Source of the DNA: Paramagnetospirillum marisnigri
GTDB lineage: Bacteria > Pseudomonadota > Alphaproteobacteria > Rhodospirillales > Magnetospirillaceae
Reading direction: 5' to 3'
NCBI RefSeq assembly: GCF_001650715.1
Contig: NZ_LWQT01000131.1
Location: forward strand, 62,001 to 126,000
DNA: 64,000 bases
The first letter of the stretch is position 1. Each line of letters starts with the position of its first letter. A program made the position numbers and the translations under genes. Positions 12,363 through 33,605 of this stretch are shown in pieces. The notes beneath the pieces were generated by a model. The model saw only the letters and a program-made list of their open reading frames with translations. It did no database searches and had not been told where the DNA came from.

Positions 12363-14537
12363 GTGGGTGATGTGCGGCATATCCTGATCGTCGAGGACAG
12401 TATGACCCAGGCCTTCAGCCTGGAATATCTGCTGTCGGAAAACGGATATCGCGCTTCCATCGCGGGCAACGGGCAGCAGGCGCTGGACATGGCGCTGGCG
12501 CACCATCCGGATCTGGTGGTCAGCGACATCACCATGCCGATCATGGGGGGCTTCGAGTTTTGCAGCCGGGCCAAGGCCAACCCGCAACTGCGCCACATCC
12601 CCATCCTGCTGCTGACCGACCTGTCCAATCCCGACGACATCATTCATGGTCTGGAAGCCAGGGCCGATGGCTATATCACCAAGCCCTACGAGGAAGGCTT
12701 CCTGCTGCGGAAGATCCAGGCCCTGCTGGCCCGCAGCGCCGAGGCATCCCCGCCCTCGCCCGAGGAGGAAGCCGAGGCCATCGATTTCGTGCTGGGCGAC
12801 CAGCGTCACGTCATCACCGCCAGCCGCAAGCACATCCTGGACATGTTCCTGTCCACCTACGAGCATTCGCTGGCGCAAAAGAAGATCCTGGAACAGAAGC
12901 AGCGCGAATTGAATGATATCAACGCCAAGCTGGCGACCAGCCTGGACAGCCTGAAGATGTCGGAGGAGCGGTTCCGCTCCTTGGTCGAGACCGTTCCCGA
13001 TATCGTCTATCGCCTGGATTCCGATGGCCGCTTCAGCTTCCTCAACAGCGCCATCGAGCGGCTCGGCTATCACCGGGGTGAACTGATCGGCACCCATTTC
13101 AGCGAGATCATCGTTCCCGCCGAGTTACCCTCGGTCAGTTGGGAAGCGGCGGTGGCCAAGCGTGACGGCCCGTTGCCGCCCGAGCCGCCCAAGCTGTTCG
13201 ACGAACGCCGTTCGGGGCGGCGCATGACCGCCGGGCTGGAAGTGCGTCTGCGGACCAAGTCGGGCATGACCGCCGAGCATGGCGAGGTCAAGGCCCTGGG
13301 CAATTCGCCGCTGGTGGTGGAAATCAGCAGTTCCGGCCTCTATGGCGAAGGCAACGAGCAGCAGCGCAACTATGTGGGCACGGTGGGTGTCATCCGTGAC
13401 ATCACCGACCGCAAACGCGCCCAGGATGCCCTGCAGCACGAGCGGGAGTTCCTGGAAAAGCTGATCAACACCTTGCCGCTGCCCATCTTCTTCGTGGACA
13501 TGGATGGTGCCATCCAGCGGATCAATTCGGCGCTTCTGCGGTTTTTCGGCCTGAATTCCGACGAGGTGCTGGGGTGCAAGTGGCACGACATCCTGCCGCC
13601 CGAGGCCGCCGAGCGCATGGCCGCCGGTGATCGCGACGATCAGCAGAACGAGATCATCTACGAGGCGACGTTGCCCGCCGCCGACGAGGAGCGCCGGGTC
13701 CTGGTCACCAAGATCCGCTTCCATAAGCCGGGCGAGGGGGCGCAGGGGCATATCGGCGTGCTGATCGACGTCACCGAACGCACCCGCACCGAGATGGAGT
13801 TGCGCAACGCCAAGCGACTGGCCGACGAAGCCACTAAGGCAAAGTCGGATTTCCTGGCGACCATGAGTCATGAACTGCGCACGCCGCTGAACGCCATTCT
13901 CGGCTTTTCAGAGATGATCACCATGCACTCCCAGGAAGGCGAGTGTTCGCCGCGTTATCGCGACTACGCCGCCAGCATCTACGAATCCGGCTCGCATCTG
14001 CTGGCCATCATCAACGACATCCTGGATATCTCGGCGGTGGAGGCGGGCAAGCTGACCCTGCATTTCGACGAGATCGAGGTGGCGGTGCTGGTGGAGTCCG
14101 CCGAGCGGTTGATCCAGGTCCGTGCCGAGAAGCGCAACCTGCAACTGGGGCTCGATCTGTCCTCGGCCCCCGCCTGCATCATGACCGATGCCCGGCGGAT
14201 GAAGCAGATCCTGATCAATCTGTTGGGCAATTCCGTCAAGTTCACCCCGGATGGTGGCTGGGTGTCGCTGCGGGTGGGCCGCACCCTGGATGGCGGCGTC
14301 AGTTTCTCGGTCAGCGATAACGGCATCGGCATGGATGAGGACGGCGTCGCCAAGGCGCTGTCGTTGTTCGGTCAGGTGGACAGCCGTCTGGCGCGCAAAT
14401 ACGAAGGCACCGGCCTTGGCCTGCCGCTCAGCCGCCATCTGGCGGAATCCCTGGGGGGGCGGTTCGAGGTGGAAAGCGCCTTGGGGCAGGGGACGACGGT
14501 TACCGTCACCCTGCCCGCCAGTTGCGTCATCCGTTGA
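12363..14537 (+). CDS. REC-PAS-PAS sensor histidine kinase
   Basis: A 724-residue cytoplasmic signalling protein with an unusual order: an N-terminal receiver domain precedes the kinase. The receiver (residues 1-125) keeps the acidic pair Glu11/Asp12, phospho-acceptor Asp55 (VVSDITMP), Thr85 and Lys107. A short coiled linker leads to PAS 1 (about 195-340, ending in VIRDITDRKRA) and PAS 2 (about 350-470). The HisKA dimer has His503 in MSHELRTPL. The ATPase domain has DNGIGMDEDGV and GTGLGLPLSRHLAESLGG. There are no membrane segments. The start is a GTG at 12363 without an obvious ribosome-binding site. Its last 11 bases overlap the 3' end of rpoH on the other strand. Confidence 0.92.
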   Translation: MGDVRHILIVEDSMTQAFSLEYLLSENGYRASIAGNGQQALDMALAHHPDLVVSDITMPIMGGFEFCSRAKANPQLRHIPILLLTDLSNPDDIIHGLEARADGYITKPYEEGFLLRKIQALLARSAEASPPSPEEEAEAIDFVLGDQRHVITASRKHILDMFLSTYEHSLAQKKILEQKQRELNDINAKLATSLDSLKMSEERFRSLVETVPDIVYRLDSDGRFSFLNSAIERLGYHRGELIGTHFSEIIVPAELPSVSWEAAVAKRDGPLPPEPPKLFDERRSGRRMTAGLEVRLRTKSGMTAEHGEVKALGNSPLVVEISSSGLYGEGNEQQRNYVGTVGVIRDITDRKRAQDALQHEREFLEKLINTLPLPIFFVDMDGAIQRINSALLRFFGLNSDEVLGCKWHDILPPEAAERMAAGDRDDQQNEIIYEATLPAADEERRVLVTKIRFHKPGEGAQGHIGVLIDVTERTRTEMELRNAKRLADEATKAKSDFLATMSHELRTPLNAILGFSEMITMHSQEGECSPRYRDYAASIYESGSHLLAIINDILDISAVEAGKLTLHFDEIEVAVLVESAERLIQVRAEKRNLQLGLDLSSAPACIMTDARRMKQILINLLGNSVKFTPDGGWVSLRVGRTLDGGVSFSVSDNGIGMDEDGVAKALSLFGQVDSRLARKYEGTGLGLPLSRHLAESLGGRFEVESALGQGTTVTVTLPASCVIR

Positions 14538-15393
14538 CGAAACCCGCCTGAACCAGATCACGGACCTTGTCGAAGGCCTTGACCTCGATCTGGCGGATGC
14601 GCTCGCGCGAAACACCGTAGCGTTCGCCCAGTTCCTCAAGGGTCGGCGGAGTGTCGCGCAGCCTGCGCTCCATAAAAATCTCCCGCTCGCGTTCGGTCAG
14701 GCTTTCCATCGCCTTGGCGATCAGGCCACGGCCCTTGTGCAGTTCTTCGCGCCGGGCATAGACCGCTTCCTGGCTATCGGCATCGTCGGGCAGCAGATCC
14801 TGGATCTCGGTGCCGCCCTCGCCGACCCGCAGGTTCAGCGAGGCATCACGTCCCGCCATGCGCCGGTTCATGGCCACCACGTCGCTTTCCTCCACATGGA
14901 GTTCGCGGGCGATGGTGGTGACATCCGCCGGGGCGAGGTCGCCGGAGTCCAGCAGGCGAAGCCGCGACTTGATCCGCCGCAGGTTGAAGAACAGCTTCTT
15001 CTGCGCCGCCAGGGTGCCGATCTTGACCATGGACCACGAATTCAGCACGAATTCATTCAGCGACGCCTTGATCCACCACATGGCGTAGGTGGCCAGGCGG
15101 AAGCCGCGCTCGGGGTCGAATTTCTTGACCGCCCGCATCAGGCCGATATTGCCTTCGGAAATCAGGTCGGCCACGGGCAGGCCGTAATGGCGATAGCCGA
15201 TGGCGATCTTGGCGACCAGCCGCAGATGGCTGGTGACCAGTTTGTGGGCCGCCTCGGTATCCTGGTACTCGATCCATCGCCGCGCCAGCATGAATTCCTC
15301 CTCGATGTCGAGGATGGGAAAGGCGCGGATGTCACGAAGATATTTGGTAAGTCCGTCGTCACCGCCGAGGACGGGAAGGGCTGCTGCCGACAT
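14527..15393 (-). CDS. rpoH: Heat-shock sigma factor RpoH (sigma-32)
   Basis: A sigma-70-family factor of 288 residues directing RNA polymerase to heat-shock promoters. Region 2 contains LISEGNIGLMRAVKKFDPERGFR and ATYAMWWIKASL; the RpoH box appears as QKKLFFNLRR; region 4.2 has TLEELGERYGVSRERIRQIE. The ATG at 15393 is preceded by GGGGAGA. Alphaproteobacteria often have more than one rpoH, so paralogy cannot be judged here. The upstream 700 bp holds several large palindromes. groESL in this window is preceded by CIRCE, so it may be under dual heat-shock control, although its visible promoter looks sigma-70-like. Confidence 0.95.
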   Translation of the reverse strand: MSAAALPVLGGDDGLTKYLRDIRAFPILDIEEEFMLARRWIEYQDTEAAHKLVTSHLRLVAKIAIGYRHYGLPVADLISEGNIGLMRAVKKFDPERGFRLATYAMWWIKASLNEFVLNSWSMVKIGTLAAQKKLFFNLRRIKSRLRLLDSGDLAPADVTTIARELHVEESDVVAMNRRMAGRDASLNLRVGEGGTEIQDLLPDDADSQEAVYARREELHKGRGLIAKAMESLTEREREIFMERRLRDTPPTLEELGERYGVSRERIRQIEVKAFDKVRDLVQAGFVNG

Positions 15394-15638
15394 GATCAAT
15401 CTCCCCAGTTGAGCCACCACCCACCTCCCATGAGGAGGGCGTCGTTCGAAGCTGGACAGTTCGCTAGTCGGCCTTGTGCCAAAGAATGAACATCGTCATA
15501 TCCTCCGTTCGAGCAACATGACTCGGAACCCGCCAAGGGGCAGCGTCCCGAAAGCCTCAATCGGTCGGTCCCAGGCTGGGCCCCGACTTCGAACATTATG
15601 CCAACACCATCGGTGGGAATCAAGCGTCGCACCGGTTC

Positions 15639-15715
15639 CTAGTGTGGTGAATTCGAAGTTCCTATCATTTCTCCGCACCCGACATTAGGAACTTCGAATT
15701 CGCAAACCACACTAG
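15639..15715. repeat. Palindrome A (hairpin element)
   Basis: Outer arms CTAGTGTGGT (15639-15648) and ACCACACTAG (15706-15715), inner arms GAATTCGAAGTTCCTA (15649-15664) and TAGGAACTTCGAATTC (15686-15701), with a 4-base GCAA asymmetry and a 21-base loop. In total 26 base pairs can form. Confidence 0.85.
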
Positions 15716-15731
15716 AAACAATAAGTTACTG

Positions 15732-15800
15732 GTGTCCAGATCGATTCTGAAATTCGAAAGGAGCTTGAATTGGATGCTGCGAATTTCAGAATCGGGACAC
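15732..15800. repeat. Palindrome B (hairpin element)
   Basis: Arms GTGTCC (15732-15737) and GGACAC (15795-15800) enclose GATTCTGAAATTCG (15743-15756) and CGAATTTCAGAATC (15780-15793). The apical part contains GGATGCTGCG (15772-15781), which is repeated in palindrome C. The outer end CACTAG directly joins palindrome C. Confidence 0.85.
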
Positions 15801-15867
15801 TAGCACTACTTTGGCACTTTAGGCTCCTTGCGGATGCTGCGGAGCCTAAAGTGCCAAAGTAGTGCTA
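15801..15867. repeat. Palindrome C (perfect 27-bp arms)
   Basis: A perfect inverted repeat. Arms at 15801-15827 and 15841-15867 (starting TAGCACTACTTTGG and ending CCAAAGTAGTGCTA) are exact complements over 27 bases, with a 13-base loop TTGCGGATGCTGC. It is contiguous with palindrome B. Confidence 0.9.
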
Positions 15868-15905
15868 GGCGGAGTCCGCATGGCAGCCATTCCAACCCAG
15901 CGAAT

Positions 15906-16028: not shown

Positions 16029-16061
16029 AACCCCGCCCTGGATTGCCGCCAGGGCGGGGTT
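16029..16061 (+). terminator. Strong hairpin, terminator-like
   Basis: AACCCCGCCCTGG (16029-16041) pairs perfectly with CCAGGGCGGGGTT (16049-16061) around a 7-base loop, followed by a T-rich GTTGCTTTGG. No annotated plus-strand gene precedes it, so it may end an unannotated transcript from the palindrome region. Confidence 0.5.
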
Positions 16062-16126: not shown

Positions 16127-16582
16127 ATGGATTTCGACGGCGAGCACCTGATTCCGGCCCCCCGTCATGAGGTCTGGCGCGCCCTCAACGACCCGGCCGT
16201 GCTGGTGGCCTGCATTCCGGGCTGCGAGACGCTGGAAAGCACCGCTCCGGGCCGATACGCCGCCACCATAGCCGTCCGCATCGGCGTTCTGGCCGCCCGC
16301 TTTTCCGGAACCCTGGCGCTGGAGGACGTGATCGAGGCCGAAGCCTATACCCTGAAAGGTCAGGGCCAGGGGGGTGTCGCCGGCTTTGTCGGCGGCAGTG
16401 CCCGGGTGACCTTGATCGACCAAGACGGTGATACCATGTTGCAATGGAAGGCCGAGGGGCAGATCGGCGGTCGGCTGGCCTCGGTGGGGGGCCGCCTTCT
16501 TCACGGATTCGCGTCGAAAACCGCCGCCGAGTTTTTTAAGAGATTTATCGGCAGTCTCGGGTGCCAACCCGATTGCGCCTAA
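16127..16582 (+). CDS. CoxG-like SRPBCC domain protein
   Basis: A 151-residue member of the carbon monoxide dehydrogenase subunit G (CoxG) family in the SRPBCC/START-like fold. Typical features are HEVWRALNDPAVLVACIPGC near residues 14-33, a central glycine-rich strand (GQGQGGVAGFVGG) and a final helix with LLHGFASKTAAEFFKRF. CoxG proteins recruit or mature molybdenum hydroxylases, but no coxMSL or related genes are present here, so the partner is unknown. The ATG at 16127 follows GGGAGATAAGGG. A TetR-type gene follows 66 bp downstream. Confidence 0.8.
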   Translation: MDFDGEHLIPAPRHEVWRALNDPAVLVACIPGCETLESTAPGRYAATIAVRIGVLAARFSGTLALEDVIEAEAYTLKGQGQGGVAGFVGGSARVTLIDQDGDTMLQWKAEGQIGGRLASVGGRLLHGFASKTAAEFFKRFIGSLGCQPDCA

Positions 16583-33212: not shown

Positions 33213-33250
33213 CAAAATAAGTGGGGGGCTTCTGTTGCCCGGTGCCCCCC
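33213..33250 (-). terminator. Terminator of ssrA
   Basis: On the minus strand GGGGGG (33250-33245) pairs with CCCCCC (33228-33223), followed by ACTTATTTT. It ends the tmRNA precursor about 25 bases before the sspB start. Confidence 0.7.
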
Positions 33251-33501
33251 GGACCGCGCTTACGGGTTAAGCCGCAGCGGCAAGTTCAACGTTGTCGTTG
33301 GCACTTGTTAGGGTTGACCCGATAACGGTGGTATCATGCCGAACGCAAACCATGCCTTTACTGCGCACGTCGATCCTGTTTCGCCCCCAGGGATTCCGGT
33401 CGCGATGACCGGAAAGAAGTCTGGTGGAGGCGCCGGGTACCGCCCCCGGGTCCGTAACGTCTATTCCACACGGCGTTTAGCGTCATAGCCGGTTGCCCGG
33501 C
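33215..33501 (-). ncRNA. ssrA: Two-piece (circularly permuted) tmRNA
   Basis: The tmRNA rescues stalled ribosomes. The gene reads on the minus strand and is permuted, as in other alphaproteobacteria. The acceptor piece comes first and ends CGCCTCCACCA at 33422. A 33-base intervening segment with the hairpin CCGGTC-ATCGC-GACCGG follows. The coding piece then begins GGGGGCGAAACAGGATCGAC at 33388. GGGGGCG and CGCCTCC form the seven-pair acceptor stem. The tag reading frame (33302-33267) encodes ANDNVELAAAA followed by TAA, giving A-ANDNVELAAAA on the tagged protein. The 5' end (about 33501) is inferred from a TATATT box, and the 3' end from the terminator. Piece boundaries are approximate. Confidence 0.93.
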
Positions 33502-33507
33502 CCGACC

Positions 33508-33513
33508 AATATA
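33508..33513 (-). promoter_or_regulatory. Candidate -10 box of ssrA
   Basis: TATATT on the minus strand, about 7 bases before the expected 5' end of the tmRNA precursor. No good -35 hexamer is visible at 16-18 bases. A perfect hairpin GACTCGC-GGAT-GCGAGTC (33547-33564) lies between here and the thyA start. Confidence 0.4.
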
Positions 33514-33605
33514 AGGGCGCGTTTCGGGAAGCGCCAGCCTTGTCATGACTCGCGGATGCGAGTCCTGCTAGACTGCCGCGGTGCAACCAAGGAATCGGAG
33601 ACACG

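Follow-up and report, generated by a model that had tools for sequence, protein, structure and literature searches.

IS630-family elements are described with ends of about 24 bp and TA targets that are duplicated on insertion (PMC2170065), and the TA in CTAG is preferred according to the title of Tenzen and Ohtsubo (1991), which is cited there. The closest described system to the element reported here is RUP of Streptococcus pneumoniae, an IS630-Spn1-related MITE which is short and non-coding, has IS630-like ends and a TA target, occurs in many copies and is over-represented between convergent genes (PMC2229807, PMC3049150). Our element, made of two palindromes called A and B, is likewise short, non-coding and present in many copies, with IS630-like ends and a probable TA target, and it is probably a further variant of RUP-like IS630 MITEs. 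When likened by description, the two differ in that RUP has 107 bp and 9-bp terminal inverted repeats, whereas A+B consists of two large covarying hairpins with a 13-bp linker and is spread class-wide. In contrast to the IS630 elements themselves, A+B is without a transposase gene and has a second, inverted copy behind each of its ends.

Other described repeats are less alike. MITEPsy1 of Pseudomonas syringae is classed as IS5-like with a question mark, and its ends, as described, are unlike those of A+B. RIME, Bru-RS, CIR and the REP of Alphaproteobacteria are repeats of related bacteria and several are palindromic, but their lengths and ends do not coincide with those of A+B in a comparison made by description only. 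REPs in general are given as palindromes of 20-40 bp tagged GTAG or CGTC (PMC3733652). For two elements of another family, IS701, repeats of 4-9 bp and no site consensus are reported (PMC8024623). Among the titles and opening lines of abstracts found in the literature, none describes this twin-hairpin element, which does not prove its absence, and the available text of a review of prokaryotic MITEs (PMC10969869) has no occurrence of the terms searched.

Hairpins A, B and C and their neighbours

The window, i.e. the whole stretch of 64,000 nucleotides of Paramagnetospirillum marisnigri that was analysed, contains three large palindromes, A, B and C, located between a minus-strand sigma-70 family gene, which we take to be rpoH, and a plus-strand gene for a CoxG-like protein (Table 1). 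Pfam regions 1.2, 2 and 4 are over cut-off in the sigma-70 family protein. In a hairpin scan of the window with spacers up to 80, the longest perfect arms are those of A (16 bp), B (15 bp) and C (28 bp), with 13 bp for the runner-up, and the DNA-fold z-scores of the three are -9.6, -7.0 and -11.6, respectively. The existence of three palindromes, proposed earlier in a sequence-only reading of the region, is confirmed by these coordinates, arms and scores. That reading had placed them head to tail, but one CTAG belongs to both B and C.

Table 1. Positions of the hairpin cluster, its parts and the neighbouring genes in the window.
Feature	Position	Strand	Basis
Sigma-70 family factor (rpoH-like), neighbour gene	14527..15420	-	Pfam, ORF
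Probable paired-hairpin MITE (A + 13-bp linker + B), outer CTAG on both sides	15639..15803	+	own-genome places, covariation, model R1
Hairpin A: CTAGTGTGGT + 16-bp stem, 4-nt bulge in inner (3') arm	15639..15715	+	
Linker AAACAATAAGTTA, 13 bp, A to B	15716..15728	+	
Hairpin B: stem of 9 + 15 bp, inner (5') arm with 4-nt bulge, outer arm IS630-end-like	15729..15803	+	
CTAG common to B and C	15800..15803	.	
Hairpin C: apparently palindromised IS701-type right end, CTAG in common with B	15800..15868	.	
CoxG-like protein, neighbour gene	16127..16582	+	Pfam PF06240 (COXG domain), ORF

In the stem of A the bulge separates arms of 10 and 16 bp, and the stem of B holds one G-T pair. Hairpin C has perfect arms and a 13-nt loop; its perfection had been seen correctly, while the length of its arms, given as 27 bp, was measured as 28 bp. 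The sequence CTAGTGT stands at both ends of the window copy of A+B, as noted before, though the left end of B reads CTGGTGT in the window (CTAGTGT in copies L002, L003, L004 and L007). Also, the apical sequence said to be common to B and C is found as the 10-mer GGATGCTGCG in both loops, at 15772-15781 and 15832-15841, exactly 60 bp apart. These loops are of different IS origin. The common tip may be a coincidence.

Two further structures were observed in the window. A terminator-like hairpin with 13-bp arms lies at 16029-16061, upstream of the CoxG-like gene, and an alphaproteobacterial (permuted) tmRNA gene is recognized by Rfam at 33220-33540 on the minus strand.

Copies of A+B, their ends and their sites

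Palindromes A and B form one element of 165 bp and C is a separate thing, so that the three are not siblings. In the 131 contigs of its own genome, A, linker and B occur together at six places with differing flanks, and B occurs alone at a seventh. CTAG is present at the start and the end of the window copy and of the copies in contigs C49, C88 and C46, while the right CTAG is missing from the copy at C131:27323 and the left one from the copy in C120. Within the genus, five of 17 genomes match, although in G009 the match is weak and the sequence is a shorter relative. The element is also present on nine plasmids of Roseibium and Labrenzia, where 70% of the query is aligned at 68-70% identity, and searches with two distant copies as queries added no further plasmid carriers.

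With a covariance model (R1) built from 15 aligned copies, the element is detected in 20 of 385 alphaproteobacterial genomes, or 17 of 277 genera; at most seven candidates were scored per genome, and the copy numbers are therefore lower bounds. Of 398 genomes drawn from the phylum as a whole, 14 match and all 14 belong to Alphaproteobacteria, the share of the 398 lying outside this class being unstated. A scan of contigs with a pattern of the A stem gave 28 stretches, and the seven that were read comprise four real copies, all in an assembly titled Terasakiella sp. PR1, and three chance matches of a 17-mer. After removal of duplicates, 86 copies were available for the architecture: 73 have 160-177 bp and 13 have 118-142 bp, some of the short ones being truncated. 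The element is thus short, repeated and bounded by terminal inverted repeats, as a MITE is. The earlier suggestion of mobile, MITE-like DNA in many copies with conserved ends is borne out by the matches in the genome, the genus and the class, and the search that it had called for in the genome and in relatives did yield many copies, with compensatory changes among them.

The B side of the element matches the ends of IS630 elements. When the outer arm of B in the window is compared with an IS630 end of G004, a genome of the same genus, 24 of 26 positions agree, against 18 of 26 for the best of 60 shuffled queries. In genome G386, the end beside a piece of an IS630 gene equals the outer B arm of the MITE at 24 of 24 positions in six of seven cases and at 23 of 24 in the seventh. 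The arm of hairpin A reaches 19 of 26 at best against IS630 ends, where the shuffle figure of 18 belongs to the B query, and the match to an IS630 element therefore holds for B and is weaker for A. Judged from these ends and from the empty sites described below, A+B is a paired-hairpin MITE, probably mobilised by IS630 transposases. With the queries used, no intact IS630 of the matching kind was found in the own genome, where a partial copy lies in C86 and a weak match in C95; a Sphingobium IS630 protein was matched (E<=1e-20) in two of 15 other MITE-bearing genomes, in G386 over 81 of 365 residues. Given this distribution, the mobiliser may have been lost, may be more distant, or may lie beyond the assembly. 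As a side observation, two IS630 elements lie apparently end to end with one common CTAG in another genome (L080 positions 304-2615, G008:C38).

Relatives also provide sites in which the element is missing. For three own-genome copies, the two flanks were joined without the element, and the joined sequence aligns through the junction with that of relatives, so that presence and absence at orthologous sites is found for these three. The junction letters are a single CTAG for the C49 copy compared with G004, and CTAA or diverged letters in the others. The comparison of the window locus in relatives, which had been recommended earlier, shows the insert to be missing in two genus-mates, as the conserved blocks are spaced by 33 bp in G004 (251 bp with the insert) and by 62 bp in G015 (244 bp), and less tightly in G011 (176 versus 342). 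This absence is read from match coordinates; MAFFT opened no large gap there and the empty site is too diverged for a base-by-base reading. CTAG stands at the start in 61 of the 86 copies and at the end in 66, counts that are compatible with a TA target within CTAG, which may itself be partly element sequence.

The terminal CTAG also contains the stop triplet TAG. A coding-frame test was applied to the 164 element ends that have 300 nt of flank or more, and 55 coding frames run into the element. Of these frames, 37 are in phase with the terminal TAG, and 36 of the 37 read TAG in that copy. Against a null of one third the p-value is 2.8e-7, but this null is unfair because the same phase is favoured at CTAG sites elsewhere and at further tetramers. 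For other CTAG sites of the same loci and the window, 13 of 30 are in phase (Fisher test of the difference from the element ends, one-sided p 0.028, two-sided 0.040), and GTAC, CATG and GATC likewise favour the TAG phase. Most of the bias may therefore come from target choice together with purifying selection, and the idea of stop-codon siting as a special device was rejected, the bias being modest over other CTAG sites and in the same direction as that of other tetramers.

Pairing in the two hairpins

The claim that base pairing is maintained while the sequence changes is upheld for A+B. Among the 15 aligned copies, 95.7% of the cells are paired and both partners have changed in 15 of 50 pairs; for example, the column pair 113/154 shows all four Watson-Crick types. 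On each of five covariation measures taken singly, none of 500 shuffles was as high, a result which kinship among the copies can inflate. Slid controls gave 25-45% pairing, a contrast flattered by a structure that was derived from the window copy. The architecture is kept as well: of the 73 long copies, 68 have a linker of 13 bp, and the 4-nt bulge, placed on the linker-facing arm of each hairpin in the window copy, keeps this layout in the model. The two arms within a hairpin are identical at 92.9% of the positions (3386/3644), a value that leans high as the alignments were fitted to the structure. Between A and B, identity of the outer arms is 68.6% (1199/1748, 73 copies). Therefore, A and B are related, each hairpin keeping its own pairing, and the stems of these two cannot be called otherwise unrelated, as they had been.

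We account for this pairing at the level of DNA. In the proposed mechanism, A+B would be a MITE of about 165 bp with two mirrored hairpins, in which each outer arm would serve as the recognition end for an IS630-family (Tc1/mariner-type) transposase inserting at the TA of CTAG, and each inner arm would be an inverted copy of its own outer arm. The transposase would act in trans from an IS630 of the same or another replicon. To judge from the end sequences and their positions, insertion would regenerate the TA followed by the first G of the element, so that both ends read TAG and the element could sit exactly on a stop codon with the gene undamaged. The pairing of the arms would be upheld by template switching from arm to arm, or by a need for the hairpin in transposition. 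A bolder version is conceivable, to which we give a rather low probability. According to it, A+B would be a new design of transposition substrate in which an IS630 end is present four times, as inverted copies arranged in a rigid mirror pattern with 4-nt bulges and the 13-bp linker. The hairpins would extrude as DNA for excision or synapsis, and arm-to-arm copying would keep the arms of each hairpin complementary although their sequence drifts. The element would then spread across Alphaproteobacteria through CTAG stop codons as harmless sites.

Somewhat less probable in our estimate, and unlikely on the whole, is that A+B is kept as a transcribed hairpin RNA which acts in the 3' ends of mRNAs through stability, termination or regulation, its mobility being incidental. 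The strong folds and the compensatory changes would suit such a role, as would copies at the 3' ends of genes, where six of the 86 lie at both stops of convergent genes in the frame test. Selection on RNA predicts that G-U is tolerated and A-C is not on the transcribed strand. An unoriented tally over the 86 copies gave 128 G-U against 82 A-C mismatches, an excess in the predicted direction for which the strand and the alignment were chosen by the RNA model. In the gene-sense sample, which consists of 24 copies with one flanking gene ending at the element in the frame test, the excess is absent, with 32 G-U against 39 A-C (two-sided p 0.48; a small sample). Selection at the RNA level was rejected on this ground, and within the limits of the sample nothing points to it for A+B.

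An RNA family was rejected likewise. No Rfam family reaches its gathering score at A-C, the tmRNA families being alone in doing so in the window, and the 13 sub-threshold matches at A-C are mostly to microRNA precursor models. The transcribed hairpin RNAs of the sequence-only reading are thus unsupported. Regulation of rpoH was looked at through the promoter and terminator scan, in which no intrinsic terminator is called in A-C; this counts little against a role in RNA, as the scan admits loops of 3-8 nt. Finally, identity with IS630 ends would explain the conservation of the arms without any role for the host.

Hairpin C as the end of an IS701-type element

Four contigs of the own genome (C56, C89, C62 and C120) start with the right end of one IS. 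Hairpin C is identical to this right end over 48 nt when read from its right and over 28 nt when read from its left, compared with 17 nt for the left end of the IS. Both ends of C are thus an IS701-type end with CTAG outside, and by this comparison C appears to be a palindromised right end, 69 bp long, of an IS701-type element. The family name rests on annotated genes of other species: the 17-bp end CTAGCACTACTTTGGCA flanks an IS701 transposase gene on both sides in a Mesorhizobium plasmid and stands beside one in a Rhizobium plasmid. While IS701 elements have such ends next to a transposase gene, C retains the palindromised right end alone. Searches of the own assembly, one of them run without a positive control, found no IS701 transposase with the queries used. 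The limit of 48 nt falls at the inner base of a small hairpin within the right end of the IS, which suggests that the palindrome was produced by fold-back copying.

The common CTAG of B and C has counterparts elsewhere. In C120 another A+B copy is joined at its B side to the right end of the IS, just as B is joined to C in the window, and CTAG-sharing junctions of IS701-type with IS630-type elements are also found in Sphingobium pUT1, Mesorhizobium pB2-1-8 and G007. The first two of the latter surfaced because the query held the junction and the third came from an IS630 protein search, so that no rate can be derived from cases found through IS630-related queries. A pattern of the IS701-type end occurs at 21 places in five of 385 genomes, and at just two of these places, C120 and the window, is an A+B element adjacent; as the pattern contained CTAG, it cannot show target choice. 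A general preference of IS701-type elements for IS630-type ends as targets is not borne out by the query-driven cases and the two places out of 21.

Some side observations concern the same contigs. In C62 (L010 74-129), a further CTAG-ended palindrome beginning with GGCGTAAACTCATAAAT abuts the IS701-type right end with the CTAG in common. The 17-mer GGCGTAAACTCATAAAT is also present in C89 (L009 from 74), with a second, inverted copy at 325-341. Six contigs (C45, C48, C56, C62, C89 and C120) begin with exactly 77 bp of the IS end, a pattern suggesting that the assembly broke where several copies of an IS had been collapsed into one.

The reading of A, B and C as one hairpin family with interchangeable stems was built on their adjacency, their common CTAG ends and the common loop 10-mer. 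It is now very improbable and was rejected, since C equals the IS701-type right end over 48 nt, B matches IS630 ends with A as its relative, and no other complete C palindrome is among the matches listed for the own genome. A REP/BIME-type origin, with RAYT (Y1) transposases as the mobilising enzymes, is just as implausible. Although mirror-paired intergenic hairpins with a fixed linker resemble REP doublets as described (PMC3733652), the units here have 69-77 bp and CTAG ends, and one matches IS630 ends, compared with 20-40 bp for REPs.

The account that we favour, and consider likely, is that A+B is a non-autonomous MITE of the IS630 type and C the remnant of a separate IS701-type element that landed at its end. 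In that second event, an IS701-type element bounded by CTAG would have used the CTAG at the right end of B. The remnant would be a perfect palindrome made from the terminal 48 bp of the IS, for which fold-back copying at the small hairpin would be the simplest origin.

With this account a puzzling hairpin cluster is reduced to two ordinary insertion events. At the same time, a widely spread family of twin-hairpin MITEs is documented and its likely mobiliser is named. The family offers a test case for whether compensatory changes in a repeat indicate RNA function or the mere upkeep of a DNA palindrome, and it is an example of how elements with CTAG ends may stack upon each other and settle harmlessly on stop codons.
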